From Arthrobacter sunyaminii (lineage in GTDB: Bacteria; Actinomycetota; Actinomycetes; Actinomycetales; Micrococcaceae), in assembly GCF_018866305.1 (NCBI RefSeq), contig NZ_CP076456.1, positions 3,286,001-3,350,000 of the forward strand: 64,000 nucleotides of DNA, written 5' to 3'. Under the pieces are notes generated by a model. That model made no database searches, was not told the origin of the DNA, and saw only the letters and a list, made by a program, of their open reading frames with translations. Below, piece after piece: positions 24,168-47,027 of the stretch. The translations under genes were made by a program, and so were the position numbers. The stretch's first letter is position 1, and each line of letters starts with the position of its first letter.

Positions 24168-26120
24168 ATGCCGCAGTCGGGGATCGATTTTTCCAGTGCT
24201 GACAACAGCGTCCGTCCCCAGGACGACCTCTACCAGCATGTCAACGGCGCGTGGCTCAACAGCACCGTAATCCCTGATGACAGGCCGCTGGAGGGCACGT
24301 TTACCGCCCTGCGTGACGGAGCTGAACTGGCAGTCAAGGCGATTATCGAAGAAGCCGCCGCCAAAGGAGAGTCCGCATCCGGCGTCGAGCAGCAAATCGG
24401 CGGCCTTTACTCCAGCTTCATGGACGTCGCTGCAGCCGACCAGCTGGGGTTGAAACCCCTGCAGGAACGTCTGGAACAAATCCGCGGCGTGCGCTCAATC
24501 GAAGAGTTCGCGGGCCTGCTTGGCCGGCTGTTCCGCTCCAACGTCCACGGTCTCTTTTCCATCTACCCCGACCCGGACGCGGGCAACCCGGAACGGGTCA
24601 TCCTCCATCTCGGGCAGGGTGGCCTGGGGCTGCCGGATGAGTCCTATTACCGCCAGGACAAGTTTGCCCCTGTCGCAGCGGCCTACGGCGACTACGTTGC
24701 CAGGTTGTTCACCCTCGCTGACATCCCTGATGCCCAAGCCGCGGCGTCCCGCGTCGTCGAACTCGAAAGGGCCCTGGCCTCGTATCACTGGGACCGGGTC
24801 ACGGTTCAGGATGCCCACAAGACCTACAACCTCAAGACAGCCGCTGAAGCCGCTGCTCTCTTTCCGCTGCTGGACACGTGGTTCGAAGCCGCCCGGGTGG
24901 AACCGGCCAAACGGGATGAGGTTATTGTCAGCACTCCGGACTTCTTCGCCGGTGCCGCCGGCTTGCTGGAGTCCGAACAACTGGGCACTTGGAAGGAATG
25001 GCTGACGCTGCGGGCCCTTAGCTCGGCCGCCCCCTACCTGTCCTCTGAATTTGTGGAGGCGCATTTTGACTTCTACGGCACCACTCTCAGCGGGACACCC
25101 CAAAACAAGGAACGGTGGAAGCGCGGGGTGGCCGTCGTCGAAGCGAACCTGGGCGAGGCAGTGGGCCGGATCTACGTGGAGCAGCACTTCCCCGCCGGCC
25201 ACAAAGCCCGGATGGAGTCCCTCGTCGCCAACTTGACCGAGGCCTACCGGGACAGCATCTCCTCCCTGGAGTGGATGGGCGAAGAAACGAAGGCTGAAGC
25301 ACTGATGAAGCTGAAGGCCTTCCGTTCCAAGGTGGGGTTCCCGGAAAAATGGATCGACTACTCGGACGTTGAGATCGATCCGCATGATCTTCTGGGCAAT
25401 ATCGAGCGGGCCCACAACGCCGACGTCGACCGGCATCTGGACGAGGTCGGCAAACCGGTTGACCTCACCAAATGGCGCCTAACACCGCAGACGGTGAACG
25501 CCTACTACCACCGGACGCTCAACGAGATCGTCTTTCCCGCCGCCATCCTCCAGCCGCCTTTCTTCAACGCGGAAGCAGACGACGCCGTCAATTACGGAGG
25601 AATCGGAGCGGTGATCGGCCATGAAATCGGCCACGGATTCGACGACCAGGGTTCACAGTTCGATGGCAGCGGGGCGCTGCGGAATTGGTGGACTGATGAG
25701 GACCGGGCCGCGTTTGAAGCTTTGACGGCCAAACTGGTGGCGCAGTACGACGCGCTCTCTCCGTATGCCGCACCAGGCCACAAGGTGAACGGAAAGCTGA
25801 CCCTGGGCGAGAACATCGGCGACCTCGGTGGTCTGGCGATCGCTTATAAGGCCTACCTCCTCAGCTTGGGCGGAGCCGAACCGGAGGTGATTGACGGCGT
25901 CACGGGACAGCAGCGGTTCTTCATGTCATGGGCAGCCGTATGGCGCCAGGTAATCCGTTCAGAGGAAGCAATCCGGAGACTGGCGACGGATCCCCACTCT
26001 CCCAACGAGTTCCGCACAAACGCCATAGCCCGCAACCTCGACGCTTTCCATGAAGCATTCAAGGTCACCGCCTCCGACGGCATGTGGCTGGATCCGGAGC
26101 AACGCGTCAGCATCTGGTAA
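24168..26120 (+). CDS. pepO: M13-family (neprilysin/PepO-like) zinc metallopeptidase
   Basis: This 650-residue protein has the zinc motif HEIGH at 485-489 (GAVIGHEIGHGFDDQGSQFD) and the third ligand in ENIGD at 548-552. NAYYHRTLNEIVFPAAILQPPFF precedes it, the M13 substrate-binding NAY motif. There is no signal peptide, so it should act in the cytosol on small peptides. It has GAGGAG before the ATG. It ends 304 bp before the quinoprotein operon. Actinobacteria often carry this gene by itself, so a link to PQQ is only a possibility. Confidence 0.92.
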   Translation: MPQSGIDFSSADNSVRPQDDLYQHVNGAWLNSTVIPDDRPLEGTFTALRDGAELAVKAIIEEAAAKGESASGVEQQIGGLYSSFMDVAAADQLGLKPLQERLEQIRGVRSIEEFAGLLGRLFRSNVHGLFSIYPDPDAGNPERVILHLGQGGLGLPDESYYRQDKFAPVAAAYGDYVARLFTLADIPDAQAAASRVVELERALASYHWDRVTVQDAHKTYNLKTAAEAAALFPLLDTWFEAARVEPAKRDEVIVSTPDFFAGAAGLLESEQLGTWKEWLTLRALSSAAPYLSSEFVEAHFDFYGTTLSGTPQNKERWKRGVAVVEANLGEAVGRIYVEQHFPAGHKARMESLVANLTEAYRDSISSLEWMGEETKAEALMKLKAFRSKVGFPEKWIDYSDVEIDPHDLLGNIERAHNADVDRHLDEVGKPVDLTKWRLTPQTVNAYYHRTLNEIVFPAAILQPPFFNAEADDAVNYGGIGAVIGHEIGHGFDDQGSQFDGSGALRNWWTDEDRAAFEALTAKLVAQYDALSPYAAPGHKVNGKLTLGENIGDLGGLAIAYKAYLLSLGGAEPEVIDGVTGQQRFFMSWAAVWRQVIRSEEAIRRLATDPHSPNEFRTNAIARNLDAFHEAFKVTASDGMWLDPEQRVSIW

Positions 26121-26424: not shown

Positions 26425-26901
26425 GTGGAGATTACTGAAGAAAACATCACCGAAGAACGATCCGCGATGTTGTCCAGGCTCGGTCTGGACGTACAGAACA
26501 AAGGAACCATGGGCCGGATTTTGGCCACCGGTTCCATCGCCGAGGCAACCGAACGCCCGGACGGCACGATGGAAGCCACCATTCGGATCAACGAAGACGA
26601 GATCTGCTGGGAACCGGCAATTCTGGTGCTTCCGCACGGCGGCGAACTTGACCTGACGGTCATCAACGATGACACAAACACGCATTCGTGCCTGCTGCCC
26701 AGTAACGGTGACCAGAAGTTTCTGTGGCTGGTGAACCATTCCAGGGGCCGGGCAACCCTGACCCTGGATGGGCCGGGCTACTACTGGTACAGCTCACCAG
26801 GAGGAAACGATGAGGGCCGCGGCCTGACCGCCGCCATCGTGGTGCGGGGCGAAGTGCCCCCGGAAGCCCGCCTCGACCGTCCCGACCAGCCCCGACCATA
26901 G
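26425..26901 (+). CDS. Cupredoxin-like PQQ-associated protein lacking copper ligands
   Basis: The 158-residue protein starts with GTG at 26425 after a strong GAGGAGGTG site. Residues 65-141 resemble a cupredoxin: beta strands and NDDTNTHSCLLPSNG, with H87 where the first copper ligand falls. The loop that normally supplies Cys, His and Met reads YYWYSSPGGNDEGRG (119-133), so those ligands are absent. It has no signal peptide. It ends 15 bp before the quinoprotein gene and is clearly cotranscribed. I recall a family named after M. smegmatis MSMEG_3727 in the same setting but could not check. It may be a partner or chaperone of the dehydrogenase. Confidence 0.7.
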   Translation: MEITEENITEERSAMLSRLGLDVQNKGTMGRILATGSIAEATERPDGTMEATIRINEDEICWEPAILVLPHGGELDLTVINDDTNTHSCLLPSNGDQKFLWLVNHSRGRATLTLDGPGYYWYSSPGGNDEGRGLTAAIVVRGEVPPEARLDRPDQPRP

Positions 26902-26916
26902 GAAGGAACTGAACCA

Positions 26917-28602
26917 ATGACTATTGAGTATTTGGACGCCGGTGAGGCAATCAGCCACGGTGCCCTCAGCGCCGTACCCGGTGTTGCACCGGCGGTTACG
27001 GACAACATTGACTACGAGCGTTTGCTGAGATCACGTGCGGAGTCGCATAACTGGATCACTTACTACGGCGCCTATGACGGGCAGCGGTACAGTCTGCTGG
27101 ACCAGATCAACACGGAGACCGTAAAGCAGCTCACCCCGGCCTGGATCTTCCAGGCCGGGCAGTCGGGACAGATTGCCGGCGCCTCGACCTACGCTTTCGA
27201 GACCTGCCCGCTGATCGTGGACGGCGTCATGTACGTCACCGGATGGGACGGCTGGTTCTGGTGTTTGGATGCGGTGACGGGCAAGGAACTCTGGCGCTAC
27301 AAGCATGCGGTGCCCTATGACGTTTCGCTGTGCTGCGGCAACGTCAACCGGGGTTGCGCAGTGGCAAACGGAAAAGTGTACTTCGTGACCCCGAACGCCC
27401 AGCTGGTGGCGTTGGATGCTACCAACGGCCAGAAGGTGTGGCAGAAGACCATTGGTGACGTGCGTGCCGGTGAAAGCGCATCGCTGGCTCCGACGGTCAT
27501 TAAGGACCTGCTCATCACCGGAAGCGCCGGCGGCGAGTTTGGCGTGCGCGGCCATATCGATGCGTGGGATCTGGAAACCGGCGAGCAGCGCTGGCGCACC
27601 TACACCGTGCCCAAGCCCGGCGAGCCGGGTTCGGAAACCTGGCCCGCTGACGGTGAGGCCTGGCAGCGCGGCGGGGCAAACCACTGGGTCACCGGAACGT
27701 ATGACCCGGAGACGAACCTGTACTACGCGGGCACTGGAAACCCTGCCCCCGATTTCGACGGCGAAGTCCGCGAGGGAGACAACCTTTACACCGACAGCGT
27801 CGTTGCACTGGACGTCGACTCAGGTCAGATCAAGTGGCACTACCAGTTCACTCCGCACGATCTGTGGGATTACGACTCCACGATGGAAATGACCCTGTTC
27901 GAGCGCGACGGCAAGAAGCTGCTCGGGCATTTCGACAAGAACGGTTACTTCTTCGTCCTGGACCGTACCAACGGTGAACTGCAGAACGTCACCCCCTTCG
28001 TGGACCGCATCGACTGGGGTGTCATTACCCCGGACGGAAAGGTCACGCCCCGGAAGTACCCGGACAAAGAGGGCGTGCCCGTTCACTTCTACCCCGGCCC
28101 GGCAGGCGCGAAGGAATGGACCCACGCGGCATACAGTCCGAAGACCGAGATGTTCTACGTGCCGGTCGCCGACGTGGGTGCCACTGCAACCCGGCGTCGC
28201 CGGGAGTTCAAGGAAAGCATGCCGTACTGGGGTGCCGGCGTTGCCGTGGACATCGACGACATGGCCGGCTCGGTCAGCGCGTTCGACACCCACGGCGAGG
28301 AAAAGTGGCGCTGGCGCATCGACTACCCCATGGCCGCCTCGGTTCTGGCCACCGCAGGGGACCTGGTCTTCGCAGGCACCCCGACCGGTGAGTTCGTCGC
28401 CCTGGATGCCCGGACCGGTGAGAAGCTGTGGGAATTCCAGTGCGGCAGCGGCCACCACGGCAGCTCCTCGACCTACAAAGTCGACGGCAAACAGTACGTC
28501 GTTGTCCCCGTCGGTTGGGGTGGATGGCTTGAAGGCATCATCCCCGGAATGCTCGGCGCCGGCCACGGCAGCGCGTTGATCGCGTTCGCCCTGCCCGACT
28601 GA
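26917..28602 (+). CDS. PQQ-dependent methanol/alcohol dehydrogenase, lanthanide-type motif, no signal peptide
   Basis: A 561-residue eight-bladed quinoprotein. Visible active-site features are the adjacent cysteine pair CC139-140 (CCGNVNRG), E207 (GGEFGVRG), N275 (GTGNPAPD), and D318 as the catalytic base in HDLWDYD. D320, two residues on, is the extra Asp that marks lanthanide-dependent XoxF/ExaF-type enzymes; calcium-type MxaF has Ala there. Oxidation of methanol to formaldehyde fits the hexulose-phosphate genes in the island; ethanol or other alcohols are possible. Residues 1-40 show no signal peptide or twin-arginine motif, unlike usual periplasmic members, and AAGGA precedes the ATG. The electron acceptor is not encoded nearby. 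Confidence 0.92.
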   Translation: MTIEYLDAGEAISHGALSAVPGVAPAVTDNIDYERLLRSRAESHNWITYYGAYDGQRYSLLDQINTETVKQLTPAWIFQAGQSGQIAGASTYAFETCPLIVDGVMYVTGWDGWFWCLDAVTGKELWRYKHAVPYDVSLCCGNVNRGCAVANGKVYFVTPNAQLVALDATNGQKVWQKTIGDVRAGESASLAPTVIKDLLITGSAGGEFGVRGHIDAWDLETGEQRWRTYTVPKPGEPGSETWPADGEAWQRGGANHWVTGTYDPETNLYYAGTGNPAPDFDGEVREGDNLYTDSVVALDVDSGQIKWHYQFTPHDLWDYDSTMEMTLFERDGKKLLGHFDKNGYFFVLDRTNGELQNVTPFVDRIDWGVITPDGKVTPRKYPDKEGVPVHFYPGPAGAKEWTHAAYSPKTEMFYVPVADVGATATRRRREFKESMPYWGAGVAVDIDDMAGSVSAFDTHGEEKWRWRIDYPMAASVLATAGDLVFAGTPTGEFVALDARTGEKLWEFQCGSGHHGSSSTYKVDGKQYVVVPVGWGGWLEGIIPGMLGAGHGSALIAFALPD

Positions 28603-28659: not shown

Positions 28660-28755
28660 ATGACCGCTAATAACGATCTGCAGAAGTGGGAAGCCCCCAC
28701 CCTCGCGGAAATCCGCGTGTCGGCCGAGGTCACCGCCTACGTCGCCACGAAGTAA
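28660..28755 (+). CDS. pqqA: PQQ precursor peptide PqqA (copy 1)
   Basis: This 31-residue peptide has the required Glu-x3-Tyr pair, E23 and Y27, in AEVTAYVATK. PqqE joins those two side chains and PQQ is built from them. The preceding WEAPTLAEIRV segment is typical of the leader that PqqD binds. The ribosome site is AGAAAGGA. It lies 57 bp after the quinoprotein gene and is followed at once by a 40-nt hairpin and pqqB. A second gene at 32345 encodes the same 31 residues. Confidence 0.93.
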   Translation: MTANNDLQKWEAPTLAEIRVSAEVTAYVATK

Positions 28756-28829: not shown

Positions 28830-29723
28830 ATGTGGGCACGAGTACTCGGATCAGCCGCCGGCGGAGGATTCCCGCAATGGAACTGCGACTGTCCCCGATG
28901 CCGGGCAGTACGAGACGGCTCACGGCCCTGCGTCCCGCGCAGCCAATCGTCCATTGCGGTAAGCGCCGGCCGGCAACAATGGTTCCTGATTAACGCCTCG
29001 CCCGATATCCAGTTCCAAATAGAAGCCTTCGGGGCCCTGCACCCCGCAGACGGCAGTGTGACCCGGATGCAGTCCGTCCTGCTCACCGACGCCGAGCTTG
29101 ACCACACACTCGGCCTGCTCCTGATGCGGGAAGGCCGCGGGCTCGAGATACACGCAACCGAGTCGGTGTATGAGACTCTCACCACCGGCACCGGGATACT
29201 GCGGACGCTCGAAGGTTACTGTCCCGTCACCTGGCGACCGGTGATGCCGGGCACCGAGATGATGCTGGGCGAAGGACTGTCTTACCGCGCCTTCGATGTC
29301 CCCACGACCAAACGGATGCGGTTCCCCGGGGCCGCGGAGAAAGGCCGGGTCGTGGGCTACCGCATCACCGATACCGCCAGTCAGCGAAGCCTGGTCTATC
29401 TCCCCGGCGTGCAGCAGATCACACCGGACGTCCTTGAGGAGCTGGCGGGCTCCTCCGCACTGCTGGTTGACGGCACCTGCTGGCGCGATGATGAGATGCC
29501 CGGCCTCGGCCTTGCCAGCAAGACATCGCGCGACATGGGACACATGCCCATCGACGGACCGGACGGCAGTCTCGAGCTGCTTGCACCCCTGCCCGTCGAC
29601 CGCAAGATCTACATCCACATCAACAACACCAATCCCATCTTGATCGACGACTCCCCCGAACGCCTGTCCCTGGACAGGCGTGGCCTGGAGGTCGCCGTAG
29701 ACGGCTTGGAACTGGAAATCTAA
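28830..29723 (+). CDS. pqqB: PqqB, PQQ biosynthesis hydroxylase-like metallo-beta-lactamase-fold protein
   Basis: The ATG at 28830 follows GAAAAGGA and gives 297 residues, the usual PqqB length; an ATG 12 bases earlier lacks a ribosome site. It has the structural-zinc motif WNCDCPRC, then INASPDIQFQIE and LLTDAELDHTLGLLLMREG, all typical of PqqB. The family hydroxylates the tyrosine-derived part of the intermediate. It acts in the cytosol between PqqE/PqqF-type processing and PqqC. Confidence 0.95.
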   Translation: MWARVLGSAAGGGFPQWNCDCPRCRAVRDGSRPCVPRSQSSIAVSAGRQQWFLINASPDIQFQIEAFGALHPADGSVTRMQSVLLTDAELDHTLGLLLMREGRGLEIHATESVYETLTTGTGILRTLEGYCPVTWRPVMPGTEMMLGEGLSYRAFDVPTTKRMRFPGAAEKGRVVGYRITDTASQRSLVYLPGVQQITPDVLEELAGSSALLVDGTCWRDDEMPGLGLASKTSRDMGHMPIDGPDGSLELLAPLPVDRKIYIHINNTNPILIDDSPERLSLDRRGLEVAVDGLELEI

Positions 29724-29729
29724 GGAGCA

Positions 29730-30425
29730 ATGATGACGGCAGTACTCACCCCCGATGAACTCGAGGAAACGCTCCGCTCACACGCCAAGCAGTACCACAG
29801 CGAGCATCCGTTCCACCGTCGGATGAACGATGGCCAGTCCAGCCGTGAGGAGATCCGGGGGTGGGTTGCCAACCGCTTCTATTACCAGGTCAACATTCCC
29901 CGGAAGGACGGGGCGATCCTCAGCAGCTGCCCGGACAGTGATGTCCGGCGCCGCTGGGTCCAGCGGATCATCGACCACGACGGCGTCACTGAAGGAACCG
30001 GGGGAATCGAGTCCTGGCTGCGTTTGAGTGAGGCAGTCGGCCTGACCCGCGAGGAAGTGGAGGATTCACGGCATCTGCTCCCGGGCGTGCGGTTTGCCGT
30101 GGATGCCTACGTCACCTTCACCCGCACCCGGCCCTGGGTGGAGGCGGTGGCATCCTCCCTCACCGAATTGTTCGCACCCGATCTGATGGCCGAGCGGATC
30201 GCGGCATTCGAACGCGACTACACCTGGATTGCACCGGAGGGCCTGGCCTACTTCCGGTCCCGCCTTACCCAGGCCCCCCGCGATTCACAACACGGTCTTG
30301 AGATCGTCAGGAAGCACTGCACCACACCGGAAACACAGGCAGCAGCAGTGGCGGCGCTGTCCTTCAAATGCGATGTGCTCTGGAGCATGCTGGACGCAAT
30401 GGAACAGGCCTATGGAAACCGCTGA
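29730..30425 (+). CDS. pqqC: PqqC, pyrroloquinoline-quinone synthase
   Basis: This 231-residue protein of the heme-oxygenase-like fold begins MMTAVLTPDELEETLR (the ATG at 29733 is equally possible) after AAGGAG. Conserved parts include HPFHRRMNDGQ, RFYYQVNIPRKDGAILS and the C-terminal LSFKCDVLWSMLDAME. PqqC closes the second ring and carries out the final oxidation to PQQ without a cofactor. The 3' end overlaps pqqD by 14 bases. Confidence 0.95.
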   Translation: MMTAVLTPDELEETLRSHAKQYHSEHPFHRRMNDGQSSREEIRGWVANRFYYQVNIPRKDGAILSSCPDSDVRRRWVQRIIDHDGVTEGTGGIESWLRLSEAVGLTREEVEDSRHLLPGVRFAVDAYVTFTRTRPWVEAVASSLTELFAPDLMAERIAAFERDYTWIAPEGLAYFRSRLTQAPRDSQHGLEIVRKHCTTPETQAAAVAALSFKCDVLWSMLDAMEQAYGNR

Positions 30426-30690
30426 CCTGAATGCCCGGCCGCGGTTGGCGCCGCACGTACGGATGGTTTTCAATGCCGCACGCGGGGAACACGCGTTATT
30501 GTCACCGGAATTGATTTGGGTCATCAACGCCACCGGAGCCGCCATCGTCGAGTTGTGCGATGCCAAACGGACCATCGCGGAAATCGCCGTCGAATTGCGC
30601 GGCCAGTTCGACCAAGTCGCTGAAGGCGACGTTCAACGCTTCGTGGCCGACCTCGTCACCAAGCACGGCATGGAGGTAGACCATGGATAA
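30412..30690 (+). CDS. pqqD: PqqD, PqqA-binding peptide chaperone
   Basis: The ATG at 30412 lies inside the end of pqqC and gives 92 residues. The sequence RPRLAPHVRMVFNAARGEHALLSPE, then LCDAKRTIAEIAVEL, matches the winged-helix RiPP recognition fold of PqqD. It presents PqqA to PqqE. The last 8 bases overlap the pqqE start (ATGGATAA), which suggests coupled translation and equal amounts. Confidence 0.94.
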   Translation: METADLNARPRLAPHVRMVFNAARGEHALLSPELIWVINATGAAIVELCDAKRTIAEIAVELRGQFDQVAEGDVQRFVADLVTKHGMEVDHG

Positions 30691-31858
30691 CCCTTACGGA
30701 CTGCTCGCAGAACTCACGTATTCCTGCCCGCTGCAGTGTTCCTACTGCTCCAACCCCCTTCAGCTCGATGATTATCGAGACGAGCTGAGTACCGAGGAGT
30801 GGAAAAGAGTATTCACCGAGGCCGCCGGCCTGGGCGTGCTCCAGCTGCATCTTTCGGGCGGTGAACCGCTGCAGCGCCGCGACATCGTCGATCTGGTGCA
30901 GCATGCCAACCAGCTGGGCCTGTACACAAACCTGATTACCAGCGGGCTCGGGCTGTCCACGCTTCGGGCCGAGCAACTCCGCAAGGCGGGCCTCGACCAC
31001 GTGCAGCTCAGCATCCAAGCCGATGACCAAGCCCTGTCCGATCAGATAGCAGTGACTACGTCGTTCGAACGCAAGCAGGTAGCCGCAGGGCTCATCAAGT
31101 CACTGGGCTGGCCGCTCACCCTGAACGTTGTGTTGCACCGGCAGAACATCGACAGGATCGGGGGCATCCTCGATATGGCGGAGGCGATGGAAGCCGACCG
31201 GGTGGAACTGGCGAACACGCAGTATGCCGGCTGGGCAGGACCCAACCAGGCCGAACTGCTGCCCACCAGGAACCAGTTGGAGGGTGCGGAGGCGGTGGTG
31301 CGGGCAGCCCGGGAGCGGATCGGGGATCGGATGGAGATCATTTACGTCATGCCCGACTACTACAGCATGTATCCCAAGCCCTGCATGGACGGCTGGGCCA
31401 GCCGTCAATTCACCGTGGTGCCCAACGGCGAGGCGCTGCCATGCCCGGCAGCCCATGAGGTGGCCCGCGGCCTCGGCCTTCCCCCTGCCACGGTGCGCGA
31501 GCACTCCCTCCAATGGATCTGGAATGAGGCACCATTGTTTCAGCAGTACCGCGGGACCGATTGGATGCCGGATCCGTGCCGAAGCTGTGACCGGAAGGAA
31601 ATCGACTTCGGCGGCTGCCGCTGCCAGGCCTTTGCGCTCACCGGTGACGCTGCCCGGACTGACCCCGTCTGTCATCTGTCTCCCGATCACGGAATTGTCG
31701 AGGCGGCAGTGGAGGCAGCCAACGACCCGCTGCGGCCGCACAACGGACCGTTGATTCCCCGCGCGAAGGTGAGCCGCGCCAAGCGCGCTGCCACAGCCAC
31801 GCAGGAAAGGCCGGCGCGAACTTCGCTGTCCCTGTCCCCCACCAGATTGAAGGATTAG
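30683..31858 (+). CDS. pqqE: PqqE, radical SAM PqqA peptide cyclase
   Basis: This 391-residue radical SAM/SPASM enzyme has the cluster motif C15-x3-C19-x2-C22 (CPLQCSYC), the SAM-binding HLSGGEPLQRRD, and C-terminal cysteines for auxiliary clusters (CMDGWASRQF, then CRSCDRKEIDFGGCRC and DPVC). It forms the Glu-Tyr carbon-carbon bond in PqqA. The extra 20 or so residues after the last cluster are basic and probably disordered. It completes an uninterrupted pqqA-B-C-D-E order. No pqqF/G-type peptidase gene is seen. Confidence 0.95.
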   Translation: MDNPYGLLAELTYSCPLQCSYCSNPLQLDDYRDELSTEEWKRVFTEAAGLGVLQLHLSGGEPLQRRDIVDLVQHANQLGLYTNLITSGLGLSTLRAEQLRKAGLDHVQLSIQADDQALSDQIAVTTSFERKQVAAGLIKSLGWPLTLNVVLHRQNIDRIGGILDMAEAMEADRVELANTQYAGWAGPNQAELLPTRNQLEGAEAVVRAARERIGDRMEIIYVMPDYYSMYPKPCMDGWASRQFTVVPNGEALPCPAAHEVARGLGLPPATVREHSLQWIWNEAPLFQQYRGTDWMPDPCRSCDRKEIDFGGCRCQAFALTGDAARTDPVCHLSPDHGIVEAAVEAANDPLRPHNGPLIPRAKVSRAKRAATATQERPARTSLSLSPTRLKD

Positions 31859-32444: not shown

Positions 32445-34742
<2,298 letters not shown>

Positions 34743-37421: not shown

Positions 37422-38795
37422 ATGCTCCCCCAATCCGCCAAGGATGAGGTGAGAGGCGCATGGGAACGGTTCGTGCAGGGCGACGACGACATCTATGGCG
37501 TGCGGCCGGAAGTCGCCATTTCCTGGCAGCGGTCCCGGGATCGCTACCGGGTTGACCCTTTTCTGTCCGAGGTGCCCAACGCTGTCTCGCAGGTGGCCCA
37601 CTCACCCAATCAGGATGCTGTCTTTGCGGAGCTGGGGTTCTGCGCCGCAGCAATGGCAAACGAGGTGGCCAGTGCCGGGGGCATTGTGACCATTGCGGAC
37701 GCCTATGGGCGGGTGCTGTCCGCCTGGGGCGATAAAAGCACCCGTTCGATCGCTACCGCGGGTGGACTCGCGCCGTGGCACTGCTGGTCCGAGGGTGCAG
37801 TAGGCACGAACAGCATGGGCACAGCACTCGAAACTCACCACGCGGTAATGATCAATCAGTCGGAACACTGGCTGCAGGCCTTCCACGACTGGTCCTGCGG
37901 GGCCATCGCGGTACGGGACGTAGTGAGCGGGGACCCCCTCGCCGTTCTGAACATTTCATGCTGGCGCAGTGACCTGCCGCTGTCCACCCGCAAATGGCTG
38001 GAGAACTCCGCCGCCCACACTCAGAACACCCTGCGCACCCGCGCGCGGGACAGCGGAAGCGAGTTGGTCGCCGCTTACGTCCAGGCCCGGGGGCGGACAA
38101 ACGAGCCGCTGGTTGCCGTTGATCTCGCCGGCGGGGTGGTAATTGCAGACGACAGAGCGAGCGTCTTTCTCGGCGTACCCGGAAATGTCCCAGCAATTGA
38201 CCCCGTGACGCGCTGGGCACCGCAGCTTCCGGCCTTCATCCACGCGGCAGGTTATGCGACGAAAAAGGCCAGCTCAGACCCTGGATGGACCGGGTCCACG
38301 AAGATCTTCACCGCTCTCTCCGACGAACCGCTATCGATCGGATTCCGTCCCGTCTTCCTTCACAAGTCTCTGATTGGGCATTTGATCTCGTTTGGTGCAT
38401 CTTCAGGCGAGGAGTTCCCGCAGACGAAAAAAGGCAGCACGTCCCTAGGGCAATCCCGTCGGATAGTCGCGCTCCGCGGAGAGAACAGAATGGTTCTGCT
38501 GGCACCGTCAGAGGTCACAATGGCCGGTTCGGAAGGCAGTGACGTGTGGCTGCTCACGGATGAAGGCAAACTCCCGGCCGCCCAGTCCGGCTTGGAAAAG
38601 CTCGACCATGATCTGGCTGATACCGGTAACTTCCTGAGGGTACACCGTCAGTATCTGGTCAACCTCAGCCGTATCCGGGAGGTGGAACGCCGGGAGAAAG
38701 GGGAACTTGTTCTGATTATGGACGATGCAGAGAACACCCGCGTTCCGGTCTCCCGGCGTAACACCGGCGCGGTGCGCCGCGCACTGAGCATTTGA
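37422..38795 (+). CDS. GAF-type sensor regulator with C-terminal LytTR DNA-binding domain
   Basis: A 457-residue protein. Residues 1-60 carry the AcoR-like start (VRPEVAISWQRSRDRYRV). A GAF domain covers about 65-205 (LAPWHCWSEGAVGTNSMG, DWSCGAIAVRDVVSG). A second PAS/GAF-like part lies at about 225-335. A LytTR domain occupies 346-457 (NFLRVHRQYLVNLSRI, VPVSRRNTGAVRRAL). The usual sigma-54 AAA module is missing, so it should act with normal sigma factors. LytTR proteins bind paired direct repeats about 21 bp apart, so it is the leading candidate for the TGARCGG sites of island promoters A, B and C. That link is inference. Confidence 0.82.
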   Translation: MLPQSAKDEVRGAWERFVQGDDDIYGVRPEVAISWQRSRDRYRVDPFLSEVPNAVSQVAHSPNQDAVFAELGFCAAAMANEVASAGGIVTIADAYGRVLSAWGDKSTRSIATAGGLAPWHCWSEGAVGTNSMGTALETHHAVMINQSEHWLQAFHDWSCGAIAVRDVVSGDPLAVLNISCWRSDLPLSTRKWLENSAAHTQNTLRTRARDSGSELVAAYVQARGRTNEPLVAVDLAGGVVIADDRASVFLGVPGNVPAIDPVTRWAPQLPAFIHAAGYATKKASSDPGWTGSTKIFTALSDEPLSIGFRPVFLHKSLIGHLISFGASSGEEFPQTKKGSTSLGQSRRIVALRGENRMVLLAPSEVTMAGSEGSDVWLLTDEGKLPAAQSGLEKLDHDLADTGNFLRVHRQYLVNLSRIREVERREKGELVLIMDDAENTRVPVSRRNTGAVRRALSI

Positions 38796-38819: not shown

Positions 38820-39908
38820 TCAGTCCATCTCTACCGGTATCTCCCCGAACCCGAAGAAGGTGACCATCCAATAGACGGCGTAGAGACCCAGGAGGACAAA
38901 GCCGTGCCATCTGCGCAGGTGGCCTGTCCACAGGAAGTACGTCGCCAGCCAGGTCATCAGCGTCAGTGCCGGCAGGTGCCATGTGATCACCGAAGAGTCG
39001 ACAATCACGCTGCCGAACAGCAGAAGCACGCCGAGTTTCGCCGTCACGGAGAAAACGGCGCTGCCGATCACGTTGGCGATGCCGATCTCGGGAGCGCCCC
39101 TCATTACCGGCCTGACCGTCAGGTACAGGTCTTCGAGAGTGAGCACCAGAGTGGCGATAGTAGCTCCGAAAACCGTCGCTTCCATGCCAAAGTCTTCCAG
39201 GATGCCTTCGGTTCCCTCGGCAACCAGATAGGCACCCAGGATCAGCCCGACGAGCGCGACGGCGGCCAGCGCCAGTGCAGGCCAGCCAGTGCGCCGATTT
39301 GCCTCCGGAAACGGCATTTCCTTGCCGAAGAACTTGTTGGTCCGGCCAGTTGCAGCTCCACCCTCGCCGCCGGTCAAGGTCAGCGTGTCAACGCTGGAAC
39401 GGGCTCCGGTGCCGGAAGTGCGGGCGAGCTCATAAGCCTCAAACATCTCCGCATCGCGGAAGACCGGCCGGTTGGCCTTGGATTCCCGGCCGACAACGTA
39501 AACGAGGAATGCCAGGAACAGGCCCAGCAGAATGACTCCGTGGATAACAGTCATTGGCCCGGTTAGGAGGAACGGGATGAGGACGAGCGGCGTGAGTGCA
39601 AAAATGCTGAGGTAATCCCGCGGGATGCTAACCCGCGTCGGTGCCAGAATCGCCGCGATGGCGAGGACCAAGCCGCTGTACCCCACCGTGGTTCCAAACA
39701 CGATGCCGACAGCAACCCCGTCCATTTCTTCTAAGTTGAAAACAACGCCAAGGGCTACATCGTCGAACTCAATCCCGGTGAAGATGATGGCGAGCAAAAA
39801 GATCGAGGCGGTCAGGCCCCTCGCTGCGCCGACCAGATGAGTGACGAGTTTGTCGGCAGCGTAGATCAGTATCGCGGCCCCAAGAACGAACGTGATCATT
39901 GAAACCAT
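38820..39908 (-). CDS. Cation (calcium/sodium)-exchanger-like membrane protein
   Basis: I place the start at the ATG at 39908 (362 residues), preceded by AGAGG; the longer frame would run through the promoter. It has about ten membrane segments in two repeats: GIEFDDVALGVVFNLEEMDG in the first and ATLVLTLEDLYLTVRPVMRG with GIANVIGSAVFSVTAKLG in the second. The acidic residues and the position of the GNxIGS-like segment resemble the Na/Ca exchanger (CaCA) superfamily, though the first repeat is divergent. It carries island promoter B, so it may supply or balance the metal (calcium or lanthanide) used by the quinoprotein. The ion is not established. Confidence 0.7.
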   Translation of the reverse strand: MVSMITFVLGAAILIYAADKLVTHLVGAARGLTASIFLLAIIFTGIEFDDVALGVVFNLEEMDGVAVGIVFGTTVGYSGLVLAIAAILAPTRVSIPRDYLSIFALTPLVLIPFLLTGPMTVIHGVILLGLFLAFLVYVVGRESKANRPVFRDAEMFEAYELARTSGTGARSSVDTLTLTGGEGGAATGRTNKFFGKEMPFPEANRRTGWPALALAAVALVGLILGAYLVAEGTEGILEDFGMEATVFGATIATLVLTLEDLYLTVRPVMRGAPEIGIANVIGSAVFSVTAKLGVLLLFGSVIVDSSVITWHLPALTLMTWLATYFLWTGHLRRWHGFVLLGLYAVYWMVTFFGFGEIPVEMD

Positions 39909-40004
39909 ATGCCTCTGACCAGCCCTTCCGATATGTGAGTACAGATGGACGCTCTGCCGTGCAGAGCAGGCAGGCCCTCGCTCGTCCGAGCCAGTTGAGA
40001 GGTA

Positions 40005-40089
40005 ACCGTATGCTGGCCATGGCAAGACAGCCAGAGACAACCGCCGAACCCCCGCACCGTGCCGCTCACCTGCCCTAACACGCCGTTCA
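40005..40089 (-). promoter_or_regulatory. Island promoter B: paired sites and TACGGT box (exchanger-like gene)
   Basis: On the minus strand TGAACGG starts at 40089 and TGAGCGG at 40068 (21 bp apart), and TACGGT starts at 40010, 58 bp after the second site. Sequence around the box (AGCATACGGTTAC, then AACTGGCTCG and GAGCGAG) matches promoter A closely. The box lies about 97 bp before the ATG at 39908. Confidence 0.75.
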
Positions 40090-41593: not shown

Positions 41594-43843
41594 GTGAATC
41601 CGACAGCAAATGCAACGCTCAATGAGGAACCGGCAACACTGATCTGGACTGAACTCGATCAGCGGGCCGTGGATACGGCTCGCGTGCTGGCCGCTGACGC
41701 CGTGGAGAAAGCGGGCAACGGTCATCCGGGCACTGCGATGAGTCTGGCGCCGGCCGCCTACCTCCTGTTCCAAAAACTGATGCGGCATGACCCGTCGGAT
41801 CCGGAGTGGACAGGACGTGACCGTTTCGTGCTCTCCCCCGGCCATACGTCGCTGACCCTGTACATCCAGCTCTTCCTCTCGGGTTACGGCCTGGAGCTCA
41901 ACGATCTGCAGGCCCTGCGAGCCTGGGGCTCACTAACCCCGGGGCATCCCGAGTACCGGCACACCAAGGGGGTGGAGATCACCACGGGTCCGCTGGGCCA
42001 GGGACTGGCCACAGCGGTGGGCTTCGCCTACGGGCAGCGCCGCCAGCGCGGGATGTTCGACGCCGGTGCTGCGCAGGGTGAGAGCCCGTTTGATCACACG
42101 ATTTGGGTCATCGCCTCTGACGGCGATCTCCAGGAAGGCGTGACAGCGGAAGCTTCCTCTTTGGCCGGGCACCAGGAGCTTGGGAATCTAGTGGTGCTCT
42201 ACGACGAGAACCACATCTCCATTGAGGATGACACGAACATCTCCTTCACCGAGGACGTCCTGAAGCGCTACGAGGCGTACGGCTGGCACACGCAGCGTGT
42301 CGACTGGACCAGGACGGGCGAATACATCGAAGACATTGCCGAGCTGCACTCCGCGCTTCTGGCTGCCAAGGCAGAGACCTCCAAGCCGTCCATCATCTCG
42401 CTGCGCACCATCATCGGCTATCCGTCGCCGAAGAAGCAGAACACGGGCAAGATCCATGGATCCGCGCTCGGAAAGGACGAAGTCGCGGCGCTGAAGGAAG
42501 CCCTGGGCTTTGACCCGGAGAAGTCCTTCGAGGTCGCCCCGGACGTCCTGGCGCACGCCCGCGGTGTGCTCCAGCGGGGCATGGAAGCGCACAGCTCCTG
42601 GCAGAAGAGCTTCGATGCGTGGCAGGCATCGCATGTCAGGGAGGCTGCCGCGCTTGAACGCATTCAGGCCCGCACCCTGCCTGCGGGCTGGGACGCCGCC
42701 CTCCCGGTGTTCGAAGCGGGAAAGGACATGTCCACGCGGGCCGCCTCGGGCAAGGTGCTGAACGCCCTCGGCCCCGTGCTCCCCGAACTCTGGGGCGGCA
42801 GCGCCGACCTCGCTGAATCGAACAACACCACCATCGAGGGCGCCGCCTCCTTCATTCCGGCGTCCCGTTCCACCGGCGTCTGGAAGGGAAACCCGTACGG
42901 GCGGGTCCTGCACTTCGGCATTCGCGAGCATGCCGCCGCCGCGATCGTCAACGGCATCGTCATGCACAGCAGCACGCGCGCCTTCTCGGGAACCTTCCTG
43001 ATCTTCAGCGACTACCAGAAGCCCGCCCTCCGCCTCGGCGCCCTCATGGGTGTTCCGGCGATCTACGTCTGGTCACACGACTCAATCGGCCTGGGAGAGG
43101 ACGGTCCCACGCACCAGCCGGTGGAGCAGCTCGCCTCCCTGCGCAGCATTCCCGGGCTCGACGTCGTTCGCCCGGCGGATGCGAACGAGGTCGCCGTCGC
43201 CTGGCGCACCATTCTGGAGAACACGCAGAACCCGGCCGGCATCGTGCTCACCCGCCAGAATGTCTCTGTGTTCCAGCGCGGCGCAGGTGAGGCCCGGGGC
43301 GAGACATTCGGGGCGGCGGAGGGTACGGCGAAGGGCGGTTACATCCTTGCAGAAGCGAAGAACGGGCTTCCCGACGTCATCCTGATCGGCACAGGCTCCG
43401 AGGTCCAGCTCGCCGTGGAAGCCCGTGAGGGGCTCGAAGCGGAGGGAATCTCCACCCGCGTTGTGTCCATGCCGTGCCTGGAATGGTTCAACGCACAGGA
43501 TTCGTCCTACCGCGACGCAGTCCTGCCGCGCACCGTGCGCGCCCGGGTCTCCGTCGAGGCAGGCGTCTCGCAGGGCTGGCACGGCGTCGTCGGTGATGCC
43601 GGACGCAGTGTCGCCCTTGAGCACTTCGGAGCCTCCGCCGACTATCAAACGCTTTACCGCCAGTTCGGTCTTACGGCAGACGCCGTCGTCGCGGCGGCGA
43701 GGGACTCCCTGGCAGCCGTGGCCGCCGAACCCCTGGCGCCCAACGGCACGCCGGCCATGCCGTCCGGCCACCGGGGCACCGAGACCGGCGACCAGCAGAA
43801 AAACGGAAAAGGAGCACACCATGACCTCATCACCCACAGCTGA
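41594..43843 (+). CDS. tkt: Transketolase
   Basis: This 749-residue protein starts with GTG after AAGGGAGA. Thiamine diphosphate features are [34 protein letters not shown], the metal site [16 protein letters not shown] and [19 protein letters not shown]. It moves two-carbon units among sugar phosphates and here should regenerate ribulose 5-phosphate for formaldehyde fixation. Dihydroxyacetone synthase has the same fold, but the hxlA/hxlB neighbours argue for transketolase. The last 35 residues are low-complexity. The end overlaps tal by 23 bases. As a second copy dedicated to C1 growth it is probably not the housekeeping enzyme. Confidence 0.93.
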
Positions 43844-44963
43844 TCTCACGGCCGCCGGCGTCTCAATCTGGCTCGATGACCTCTCCCGGGAGCGCATCAA
43901 TTCGGGCGCCTTCAAGCATCTCATCGAGGAGCGCAACGTCGTCGGCGTCACGACCAACCCCAGCATTTTTGCCGCAGCGCTGAAGAAGGGCGAGTCCTAT
44001 GCCTCGCAAATCGGCGCTCTCGCACAAGCAGGAGCCAGCGTCGGCCAGGCCGTTTTCGACATCACTACGCACGATGTTGCCCAGGCCTGCGACATTTTTG
44101 CCGAAGCCGCCAAGCGCACCAACGGAGCCGATGGCCGCGTCTCCATCGAGGTTGACCCGGGACTGTCGCGAGACACCGCGGGAACGGTTGCCGAGGCCAA
44201 GCGGCTGCACGCGAAGGTGCAGCGCACCAATGTCCTGATCAAGATCCCGGCTACCCGCGAGGGCCTGCCTGCCATCTCCACGACACTTGCCGGGGGCATC
44301 AGCGTCAACGTCACGCTGATCTTCTCCCTGGAACGCTACCGTGACGTCGTTGACGCCTTCATGCTTGGTCTCGAACAGGCCAAGGAGAACGGCCACGACC
44401 TGTCGCAGATTCACTCCGTGGCCTCGTTCTTTGTCTCCCGTCTGGACACCGAAATCGATGCACTCCTCGATGCGGTCGGAACTGACGAGGCGAAGGCACT
44501 CAAGGGGCAGGCCGGCGTCGCCAATGCCTGTTTGGCCTACCGGATCTTCCAGGAGCAGTTCGCCACCGAGCGCTGGCAGGCCTTGGAGGCCGCCGGTGCC
44601 CATGCCCAGCGTCCCCTCTGGGCTTCAACCGGAGTGAAAGACCCGAACCTCCCGGACACGCTCTACGTCGCGGGCCTCGTCGCTCCCCATGTCGTCAACA
44701 CGATGCCGGAGAAGACACTCGAGGCCGTGGCCGACCACGGTGTCGTGAGGTTCGATACCATCACCGGATCCTACGAGCAGTCCGAGAAAACCCTCAACGG
44801 CCTCGCGGCCGTCGGCATCTCCTACGACGAGGTAGTCCAGCAGCTCGAGACCGAGGGTCTCGACAAATTCGTTGCCAGCTGGGCGGAACTGCTGGCCGAC
44901 GTCGAAGCTGCCCTCACACACGCCGCTCCCGAAAGGCAGACGCCATGCCCGGTTTCCCTCTGA
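43821..44963 (+). CDS. tal: Transaldolase
   Basis: The ATG at 43821 follows AAAAGGAG and gives 380 residues, the long actinobacterial type. It has [32 protein letters not shown], the Schiff-base lysine in [16 protein letters not shown] and [15 protein letters not shown]. It transfers dihydroxyacetone units between sugar phosphates, supporting the transaldolase variant of the ribulose monophosphate cycle. It overlaps both tkt (23 bases) and rpe (19 bases), so the three genes are translated as one tight operon. Confidence 0.95.
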
Positions 44964-45628
44964 AATGCTGCATCAACCCAAGCATCCTCTCGGCTGACTT
45001 CGCGAACCTGGAGTCCGAGCTCGCGCTCATAAGCAACGCCGATGCCGTTCACGTGGATGTCATGGACAACCACTTTGTTCCGAACCTGACCATTGGCCTG
45101 CCCGTGGTGGAGCGGCTGCAAAAGGTCAGTCCCGTACCGTTGGACGCCCATCTGATGATCTCCAACGCAGACCGCTGGGCACCGCAATATGCCGACGCCG
45201 GTTTAAACTCGGTCACTTTCCATGTCGAAGCATCGGACGCCCCCATCAAACTCGCCCGCGAACTGCGTGCCAGAGGCACCAGGGCAGGTATGGCCCTGCG
45301 CCCGGCCACTGCGGTGGAACCGTACCTGGATATGCTGCCGGAACTGGACATGCTGTTGATCATGACGGTGGAACCGGGCTTTGGGGGCCAGGCATTCCTG
45401 GACGTAATGCTGCCCAAGATTCGCCGTGCCCGCGCGGCTGTAGAGGGTTCCGGAGTGGACGTCGCCATCCAGGTGGACGGTGGCATCACGGAAGAAACAA
45501 TCACCCGGGCTGCGGAAGCCGGAGCCAACGTCTTCGTGGCCGGTTCTGCCGTCTACGGCAGGCCGTCGCCGGCGGAAGCCATCGAGTCACTGCGGGCAAA
45601 CGGCCAGCGCGCCCTGACCCGTCCTTAA
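44945..45628 (+). CDS. rpe: Ribulose-phosphate 3-epimerase
   Basis: This 227-residue TIM-barrel protein has [17 protein letters not shown], the metal residues [38 protein letters not shown] and the phosphate loop [11 protein letters not shown]. It interconverts ribulose 5-phosphate and xylulose 5-phosphate, connecting transketolase products to the acceptor for formaldehyde. The ATG lies inside the end of tal. The TAA stop is embedded in the leader block of hxlB. Confidence 0.95.
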
Positions 45629-45669
45629 GGGTAGTCAAAACCGTTCAAAAACAGTGTTACCCCTGCCCG
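45623..45669 (+). promoter_or_regulatory. RuMP leader block 2 (before hxlB)
   Basis: The block CCTTAAGGGTAGT...CCGTTCAAAAACAG...TTACCCCT-x-CCCG differs from the tkt copy at three of 47 positions. Similarity continues downstream (ATCATG-x2-TATCAGCCA, CCGCTACAGG) and includes the start codon and first codons of hxlB (GTGAATCCGACA). It is an internal promoter that gives hxlB-hxlA its own transcript, possibly with readthrough from rpe. Confidence 0.75.
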
Positions 45670-45749
45670 GAGTGCTCACCATCATGGATATCAGCCACAA
45701 GCGGCCGCAAGGCCGCTACAGGTCGATGACTGCTTTGAAAGGACAAACA

Positions 45750-46349
45750 GTGAATCCGACAACAGATGCACCGGCCATTGCGCCCGCCACTGAGAGTGAC
45801 GTGCTCCGCAATATCTCCCTCGTCAGGGACGAAATCACCAACACTGCAGCCAAACTGGATGCCCGCGAGCTGGCCGGCCTCGCGGCTCATCTCAGCCAGG
45901 GCGGACGGGTGTTCGTTGCCGGGGCGGGCCGAAGCGGCCTGGTTCTTCGGATGGCCGCCATGAGGCTGATGCATCTGGGACTGACGGTTCATATCGCCGG
46001 TGACACCACTACCCCGGCTATCACATCCGGCGACCTGCTGCTGGTAGCTTCCGGGTCCGGAACCACGTCGGGGGTGGTCAAGTCGGCGGAAACCGCGGCG
46101 AAGGCCGGAGCGCGGATTGCAGCGTTCACGACCAACCCGGATTCACCGCTGGCCGGGCTCGCCGACGCCCTGGTCATTATTCCGGCCGCACAAAAAACTG
46201 ATCACGGCTCGAGCGTGAGCCGCCAGTACTCCGGTTCGCTGTTTGAACAGGTCCTCTTTCTCGCCACCGAAGCCATCTTCCAGTCCCTGTGGGACAACAC
46301 CGATGAACCCGCCGAGGACCTCTGGCTCCGGCACGCCAACCTCGAGTAA
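45750..46349 (+). CDS. hxlB: 6-phospho-3-hexuloisomerase
   Basis: I chose the GTG at 45750, preceded by GAAAGGA and homologous to the tkt start, giving 199 residues, the normal length; the frame stays open upstream. The SIS-domain motifs GRVFVAGAGRSGLVLRMAAMR, LVASGSGTTSGVV and QKTDHGSSVSRQYSGSLFEQ match Phi/HxlB. It isomerises hexulose 6-phosphate to fructose 6-phosphate, the second step of formaldehyde fixation. hxlA follows after 54 bp. Confidence 0.95.
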   Translation: MNPTTDAPAIAPATESDVLRNISLVRDEITNTAAKLDARELAGLAAHLSQGGRVFVAGAGRSGLVLRMAAMRLMHLGLTVHIAGDTTTPAITSGDLLLVASGSGTTSGVVKSAETAAKAGARIAAFTTNPDSPLAGLADALVIIPAAQKTDHGSSVSRQYSGSLFEQVLFLATEAIFQSLWDNTDEPAEDLWLRHANLE

Positions 46350-46403
46350 GCACAACGTCCGCCGTCACAGCCCAACGCAGTCCCCTACAGAAAGAAGCAG
46401 CTC

Positions 46404-47027
46404 GTGAAACTTCAAGTAGCCATGGACCTCCTCACCACCAAGGACGCCCTCGAACTGGCAGGCCGGGTGGCCGAGTACGTCGACATCATCGAACTCGGCA
46501 CTCCCCTGATCAAGGCCGCGGGGCTTTCCGTTGTCACAGCAGTCAAGGAAGCCCATCCGGACAAGCTTGTCTTCGCTGACATGAAGACCATGGACGCCGG
46601 CGAGCTTGAAGCCGACATCGCCTTCAAAGCCGGTGCAGACCTGATGACCGTGCTCGGTGTCGCCGATGATTCCACCATTGCCGGCGCCGTCAAGGCAGCC
46701 AAAGCGCACAACAAGGGCGTCGTGGTCGACCTCATCGGAGTTGCGGACAAGGTCACCCGCGCCAAAGAGGTCCGTGCGCTCGGTGCGGAGTTCGTTGAGA
46801 TGCACGCGGGTCTGGACGAGCAGGCCCAGCCCGGTTTCGATCTGCAGGGGCTTCTCACCGCAGGCGCCGAAGCCCGCGTTCCGTTCTCCGTTGCCGGCGG
46901 GGTGAAGGTGAGCACCATTGGAGCGGTTCAGCAGGCCGGAGCCGACGTAGCTGTAGCCGGCGGCGCCATCTATGGTGCAGCCGATCCGGCCCTGGCCGCC
47001 AAGGAACTGCGCGAGGCCATCGCCTAG
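46404..47027 (+). CDS. hxlA: 3-hexulose-6-phosphate synthase
   Basis: This 207-residue enzyme of the OMP decarboxylase superfamily starts with GTG after GAAAGAAG. Family residues are LQVAMDLLTTKDAL, DIIELGTPLIKAAG, the metal/catalytic ADMKTMDAGELEAD, VVVDLIGVAD, EMHAGLDEQ and VAGGVKVSTI. It condenses formaldehyde with ribulose 5-phosphate. With hxlB it forms the key module of the ribulose monophosphate pathway, and in this island it is the sink for formaldehyde made by the quinoprotein. A strong hairpin follows the stop. Confidence 0.96.
   Translation: MKLQVAMDLLTTKDALELAGRVAEYVDIIELGTPLIKAAGLSVVTAVKEAHPDKLVFADMKTMDAGELEADIAFKAGADLMTVLGVADDSTIAGAVKAAKAHNKGVVVDLIGVADKVTRAKEVRALGAEFVEMHAGLDEQAQPGFDLQGLLTAGAEARVPFSVAGGVKVSTIGAVQQAGADVAVAGGAIYGAADPALAAKELREAIA

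Follow-up and report, generated by a model that had tools for sequence, protein, structure and literature searches.

Gene content of the locus

The window analysed here, 64,000 nucleotides of the Arthrobacter sunyaminii genome (contig NZ_CP076456.1), carries on its forward strand, at 26917–28602, an open reading frame with an ATG start and a product of 561 aa. It encodes a leaderless PQQ dehydrogenase with a lanthanide-type aspartate, Asp320. The match to TIGR03075 (627.5 bits; cut-off, 480.05) assigns the protein to the PQQ-dependent methanol/ethanol family. The nearest structure was that of PedH of Pseudomonas putida KT2440 (PDB 6zcv and 6zcw), a lanthanide-dependent PQQ alcohol dehydrogenase; the structures of XoxF (PDB 6dam, 6oc5 and 4mae) showed a lower identity of 34–35%. 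The residues C139, C140, E207, N275, W317, D318, Y319 and D320 could be read off as an earlier note on this DNA had given them.

The sequence AGGAAGGA sits 5′ of the dehydrogenase ATG. The TAG of the preceding gene, at 26899–26901, ends 15 bases ahead of this ATG and is also the nearest in-frame upstream stop for the dehydrogenase, five codons 5′ of its start, so that an N-terminal extension of the protein is impossible. No signal-like start was found in the window dehydrogenase, nor is there room for one. In conjunction with the start region conserved in the clade described below, the position of this stop bears out the claim that the enzyme lacks both an export signal and the space for it, and rules out a mis-called start. 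A pseudogene is likewise ruled out, as the reading frame of the window gene is intact and its product has the active-site residues seen throughout the clade.

The preceding gene, at 26425–26901 on the forward strand, encodes a leaderless, cupredoxin-like protein of 158 aa, which belongs to the MSMEG_3727 family of PQQ-associated proteins (TIGR04339, 268.6 bits against a cut-off of 75; PF23509, 267.7 bits). The PQQ association of this family is already catalogued, as the family is so named in NCBIfam and Pfam. The family is rare, being found in two of 394 genomes of the class, the genome under study included. In an alignment of 22 rows, H71 and H87 were invariant, and no cysteine was present among the invariant or nearly invariant columns; the Cys/His/Met ligand set of blue-copper cupredoxins is thus incomplete in the partner. 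The structural model of the partner was weak (pLDDT 59), its top fold matches in the PDB were mostly of the cupredoxin type (best E-value, 2.4e-5), and no PDB relative was detected by sequence at an E-value of 1. The namesake of the family lies in the MSMEG_3721–3727 region of M. smegmatis, which we compared by description only; PMC6529628 attributes to this region putative genes for PQQ synthesis and for alcohol dehydrogenases that depend on PQQ.

The dehydrogenase gene is followed on the same strand by pqqA (28660–28755; PQQ precursor peptide of 31 aa; TIGR02107, 32 bits, cut-off 20), pqqB (28830–29723; TIGR02108, 373.7 bits, cut-off 245), pqqC (29730–30425; TIGR02111, 338.5 bits, cut-off 240), pqqD (30427–30690, start codon unsure; TIGR03859, 80.8 bits, cut-off 46) and pqqE (30683–31858; TIGR02109, 498.2 bits, cut-off 381). 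Next comes katG (32502–34742, forward strand; TIGR00198, 1014 bits, cut-off 770), encoding a bifunctional catalase-peroxidase that carries R105, W108 and H109, which we take to be the distal active-site residues, and H271, presumably the proximal one. Further downstream are a LytTR-domain regulator (37422–38795, forward strand; PF04397 and clustering), which has a homologue close to the cassette in the majority of loci, and a cation transporter of the Na/Ca-exchanger family (38820–40040, reverse strand; PF01699 and clustering). Directly 5′ of the cassette, an M13-family zinc peptidase (PepO-like; PF05649 and PF01431) is encoded at 24168–26120 on the forward strand; that this peptidase might trim PqqA is no more than conjecture. 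An HbpS/GlcG-like small protein (PF03928; 34808–35206, reverse strand) is encoded right past katG, and its cluster was found in only three sources. No Rfam element or riboswitch was detected at gathering score within the window.

The leaderless relatives and their neighbourhoods

Genomes were scanned with an alignment of the upstream partner, and the best 80 of 202 stretches encoding a relative gave 79 loci from Actinobacteria. A dehydrogenase frame was located 3′ of the partner gene in 76 of these loci; of the exceptions, L029 and L066 stop at contig ends just past the partner, and in L057 the dehydrogenase frame is broken. The 76 loci yielded 77 frames, two of them from L011 (the second L011 frame and that of L082 are cut by contig ends). 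A signal-free N-terminal block, M-T-x-E-Y-V-D-A-G-E-A or a close variant, was present in all 77 frames, a few of which have preceding residues. These frames were aligned with eight deep-lineage rows of the same phylum, one row from a Streptomyces plasmid and the window protein. The CC pair and the catalytic residues of the family (CC, E, N, W, D, Y and D) were kept in all 87 rows, which are related to one another (L077 and L078 are identical) and do not represent 87 independent events. Among the protein-database relatives (120 listed of 7842 matches), the enzyme was covered over 95–100% and nearly all proteins were of 559–569 aa. The partner–dehydrogenase pair occurs twice in Psychromicrobium (L010), head to head and with equal scores, and twice in the same direction in Micrococcaceae RIT 802 (L011). 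Two proteins 77% identical to the dehydrogenase (P0207 and P0214) are attributed by a source to Dehalococcoidia MAGs, and would place the leaderless enzyme beyond Actinomycetota unless the bins are mixed.

As exported controls, 11 dehydrogenases were taken from plasmid records. One branch (SH-aLRT 99) split the leaderless rows from these controls in a quick tree with long outgroup branches, placing the leaderless relatives, which are carried by many soil actinobacteria, in a single clade. At position 320, the controls had Asp in seven cases, Ser in two and Thr in two. The second metal-site Asp typical of the lanthanide enzymes PedH, ExaF and XoxF is present as D320 throughout the 87 rows. The calcium methanol dehydrogenase MxaF has Ala at this position, and the window enzyme does not share it. 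The earlier note had regarded this position as a choice between Asp and Ala; the Asp is indeed present, but Ala is not the sole calcium-type alternative, for ethanol dehydrogenases may have Ser or Thr. The calcium-type ethanol dehydrogenase 1flg, for example, reads W-D-F-S at the motif, indicating that the second Asp is replaceable by Ser.

The number of cysteines in the leaderless rows ranged from 5 to 10 (3, 15, 24, 32, 11 and 2 rows for 5, 6, 7, 8, 9 and 10 cysteines, respectively). Except for C509, found in 86 of 87 rows (one row is cut short), the extra cysteines differ from row to row. Among the exported controls, two body cysteines were counted in L113, L115, L118, L120 and L122, and probably also in L112 (start unsure); three were counted in L114, and four in L117 and L119, two Asp-site enzymes that we take to be XoxF. 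The controls L116 and L121 have a haem or lipobox cysteine in addition to the CC pair. Crude hydropathy was only partly useful as a signal detector: the leaderless rows reached a maximum of 1.70 (median 0.75, n=87) and nine of the 11 controls lay above them, with L118 (1.37), L112 (0.23, start unsure) and the Tat-type paralogue L094 (1.11) falling within the leaderless range. Because of this overlap, the case for a leaderless enzyme is built on conservation, the closed upstream frame and the number of cysteines.

Neighbouring genes were clustered over 88 sources, namely, the 79 loci, eight short deep-lineage loci and the window. The resulting counts are lower bounds, as contig ends truncate many of the loci and gene calling was crude: KatG was found in at least 72 sources, the LytTR regulator in 67, pqqB in 48, pqqE in 46, an MntP-like transporter in 28 and the Na/Ca exchanger in 14. 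The eight deep-lineage cassettes, of 12–20 kb each, contained the partner and dehydrogenase together in all cases, pqqBCDE in seven (L134 ends within pqqB), an MntP-like gene in six and KatG in none. The core of the cassette thus appears to be formed by the partner, the dehydrogenase, the pqq genes and often a cation transporter, with KatG and the regulator apparently added in Actinomycetes; given its absence near the deep cassettes, we do not regard KatG as obligatory. The MntP-like and Na/Ca-exchanger clusters shared no locus among the 88 sources (28 versus 14; P=0.003, ignoring relatedness), but the deep-lineage locus L137, with MntP plus weak exchanger-like matches, weakens the idea of an either-or transporter. 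Transporters of either kind could handle cytosolic metal. MntP-like genes were seen 3′ of pqqE in L135, L136 and other loci. In a Thioclava plasmid (L120; NZ_CP135445.1, 2334–7521), the gene for a signal-bearing Asp-site PQQ dehydrogenase is flanked by katG and the gene for a c-type cytochrome; the katG neighbourhood is therefore not confined to the leaderless clade.

Substrate, electron acceptor, metal and location

A complete RuMP set is located at 41594–47027 on the forward strand, each gene scoring above the curated cut-off of at least one NCBIfam model: transketolase (41594–43843; TIGR00232, 741 bits, cut-off 682), transaldolase (43821–44963; NF002881, 527 bits, cut-off 367), ribulose-phosphate 3-epimerase (44945–45628; TIGR01163, 250 bits, cut-off 213), 6-phospho-3-hexuloisomerase (PHI; 45654–46349; TIGR03127, 234 bits, cut-off 160) and 3-hexulose-6-phosphate synthase (HPS; 46404–47027, GTG start; TIGR03128, 257.5 bits, cut-off 200). 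These genes are less than 20 kb from the dehydrogenase, and HPS was found near the dehydrogenase in nine other loci. In 49 cassette genomes, about one per species and drawn from the 79 loci, HPS above the cut-off was detected in 19, compared with seven of 394 class genomes (own included). With strata drawn by organism name and kinship, the excess was observed both within the order (8/9 versus 7/40, own included) and outside it (11/40 versus 0/354). The RuMP set of the window and the enrichment of HPS in cassette genomes make it likely that the dehydrogenase serves to convert methanol into formaldehyde for RuMP in this organism. NDMA-methanol oxidoreductase, which had no match in the own genome, was ruled out as the methanol enzyme. 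PMC5606694 reports xoxF5-like amplicons from Actinobacteria, and growth on methanol of two Arthrobacter isolates not known to carry the cassette: the density of one was 1.35 with Ce3+ versus 0.86 with Ca2+ (significant), and that of the other 1.10 versus 0.79 (not marked).

Known relatives hand their electrons to a cytochrome c outside the membrane, as described for XoxG in PMC10875860. In the own genome, searches with PF13442 and PF00034 detected one frame with cytochrome c domains, a dihaem protein located between CtaE-like and QcrA-like genes and hence QcrC (names by eye); a dedicated cytochrome c acceptor was not among the matches. PF13442 was also searched in 20 cassette genomes, consisting of 18 of the 49 (mostly chosen with HPS) and two deep ones, and gave one dihaem frame in 17, two in one, and none in both deep genomes. 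Since no dedicated cytochrome c was found, the electrons would not be passed to one, and the predicted acceptor must be another molecule. Mycofactocin was rejected for this role, the best match in the own genome being PqqE itself and another match being weak, both below the maturase cut-off. Two matches of the GSDH family (PF07995) above the cut-off are present in the own genome, at 1517587–1518480 and 165736–166596; these are possible further PQQ users, and the idea that the dehydrogenase alone uses PQQ was dropped.

The enzyme might be cytosolic and yet act broadly on alcohols or aldehydes instead of methanol, with the RuMP neighbours serving another source of formaldehyde. PedH, the nearest structure, is a dehydrogenase of volatile alcohols (PMC13088180), and 30 of the 49 cassette genomes lack HPS above the cut-off; these organisms would have to dispose of the product in another way, or else use the enzyme on different alcohols. 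We consider this alternative unlikely, given the HPS enrichment both inside and outside the order and the nearness of RuMP or HPS genes in the window and in nine other loci. A further proposal concerns the acceptor only and is compatible with a cytosolic methanol dehydrogenase: O2 would re-oxidise reduced PQQ, making the pair an alcohol oxidase, and KatG would remove or use the H2O2. It is favoured by the frequency of the KatG cluster (72 of 88 sources, with the catalytic residues in 70 of 72 rows and two rows gapped), by the position of katG upstream of the partner gene, on the same strand and within 1.5 kb, in 47 of 88 sources, and by an own genome with QcrC as its only c-type cytochrome (PF13442 and PF00034) and no mycofactocin maturase above the cut-off. 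Against it, the reaction of the known PQQ dehydrogenases with O2 is slow, and KatG is missing from all eight deep-lineage cassettes; we regard this oxidase route as rather doubtful.

With respect to the metal, lanthanide use is predicted from the invariant metal-site Asp. Use of Ca2+ despite Asp320 would fit the transporters that accompany the cassette, whose families handle Ca and Mn, and would dispense with a conjectural cytosolic lanthanide supply; against it stand the presence of Asp320 in every row and the lanthanide selection by PedH, which has the same Asp (PMC13088180), and we judge it improbable. As to location, the earlier note had offered either a cytosolic enzyme or one leaving by an unrecognised route. 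The comparison supports the former well, through the conserved leaderless start, the extra cysteines, the leaderless partner, the formaldehyde sink in the window and the failure to find a dedicated cytochrome c, and a cytosolic location is favoured; the latter gained no support. Export without a classical signal, by hitchhiking on a Tat partner, by an ESX-type system or by another route, would let the enzyme work outside like its relatives, described as periplasmic in PMC10875860 and, for PedH, in PMC13088180, and would agree with the CC pair kept in 87/87 rows. The invariance of this pair speaks most strongly against a simple cytosolic interpretation, except if the disulfide can form in the cytosol or the enzyme functions with the pair reduced. 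Nevertheless, non-classical export seems very improbable: the extra cysteines are scattered, the operon partner is leaderless too, no known export carrier was identified among the clusters recurring beside the cassette, as far as these were identified, no dedicated cytochrome c was found that could accept electrons outside, and the actinobacterial PQQ-type paralogues L091, L093 and L094 do bear lipoprotein- or Tat-like starts, as judged by eye.

Proposed cytosolic route and its significance

Taken together, we infer that the window probably encodes a cytosolic, lanthanide-type PQQ dehydrogenase of methanol, or more broadly of alcohols, which delivers formaldehyde to RuMP and electrons to a non-cytochrome acceptor. 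The products of the adjacent pqqABCDE would synthesise PQQ in the cytosol, where the cofactor would also be inserted into the dehydrogenase, for which the leaderless cupredoxin-like partner would be the likeliest docking or stabilising subunit. The enzyme would then oxidise methanol to formaldehyde inside the cell, HPS and PHI of the RuMP operon would fix the formaldehyde, and the electrons would pass to an acceptor on the cytosolic side. This could be menaquinone, a flavin or another carrier, or else O2, reached directly or by an indirect path, in which case KatG would remove H2O2. The O2/H2O2 route is attractive given the adjacent KatG, but the absence of KatG in the deep lineage argues against its being obligatory. 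Counting against this explanation are the CC pair, which is disulfide-bonded in exported relatives and odd for a reducing cytosol, as well as the cassette genomes without strong HPS and the deep cassettes without KatG. Further points are that HPS and PHI can serve formaldehyde from other sources, that two GSDH-family matches exist, and that the PQQ genes of M. smegmatis were no substitute for mycofactocin in growth on ethanol, according to PMC6529628.

The proposed system differs from those known. PedH is periplasmic (PMC6839425 and PMC13088180), whereas the window clade is leaderless, rich in cysteine, associated with a cupredoxin-like partner and without an adjoining cytochrome c gene. XoxF resembles the window enzyme in its metal-site Asp, probable methanol substrate and fold, but is periplasmic and works with the cytochrome XoxG and with XoxJ (PMC10875860). 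In that 2024 survey, XoxF is treated as periplasmic and its absence from the Gram-positive MAGs studied is called 'not surprising'. Searches of an open-licence PMC library brought up no account of a lanthanide-type PQQ dehydrogenase in Actinobacteria that is leaderless or cytosolic. The window enzyme would extend a field in which, to our knowledge, no cytosolic lanthanide enzyme has been known before.

More tentatively, the whole actinobacterial clade may run a cytosolic, rare-earth quinoprotein oxidation of alcohols (methanol) that is cytochrome-free and passes formaldehyde straight to RuMP, a reading to which we give somewhat less than an even chance. It requires that lanthanides be handled in the cytosol and that the vicinal disulfide, or its reduced form, work there; it is a guess that the partner serves in electron transfer or docking, and another that the transporter, whether MntP-like or exchanger-like, handles the lanthanide. 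If the proposal is true, a conserved leaderless clade would overturn the expectation that Gram-positives have no such enzymes, and cells would handle rare-earth ions in the cytosol. Methanol oxidation would yield formaldehyde where RuMP uses it, which would be useful for synthetic methylotrophy. The clade poses a clean question on the cytochrome-free electron acceptor, and culturable actinobacteria bearing the cassette make the claim testable.
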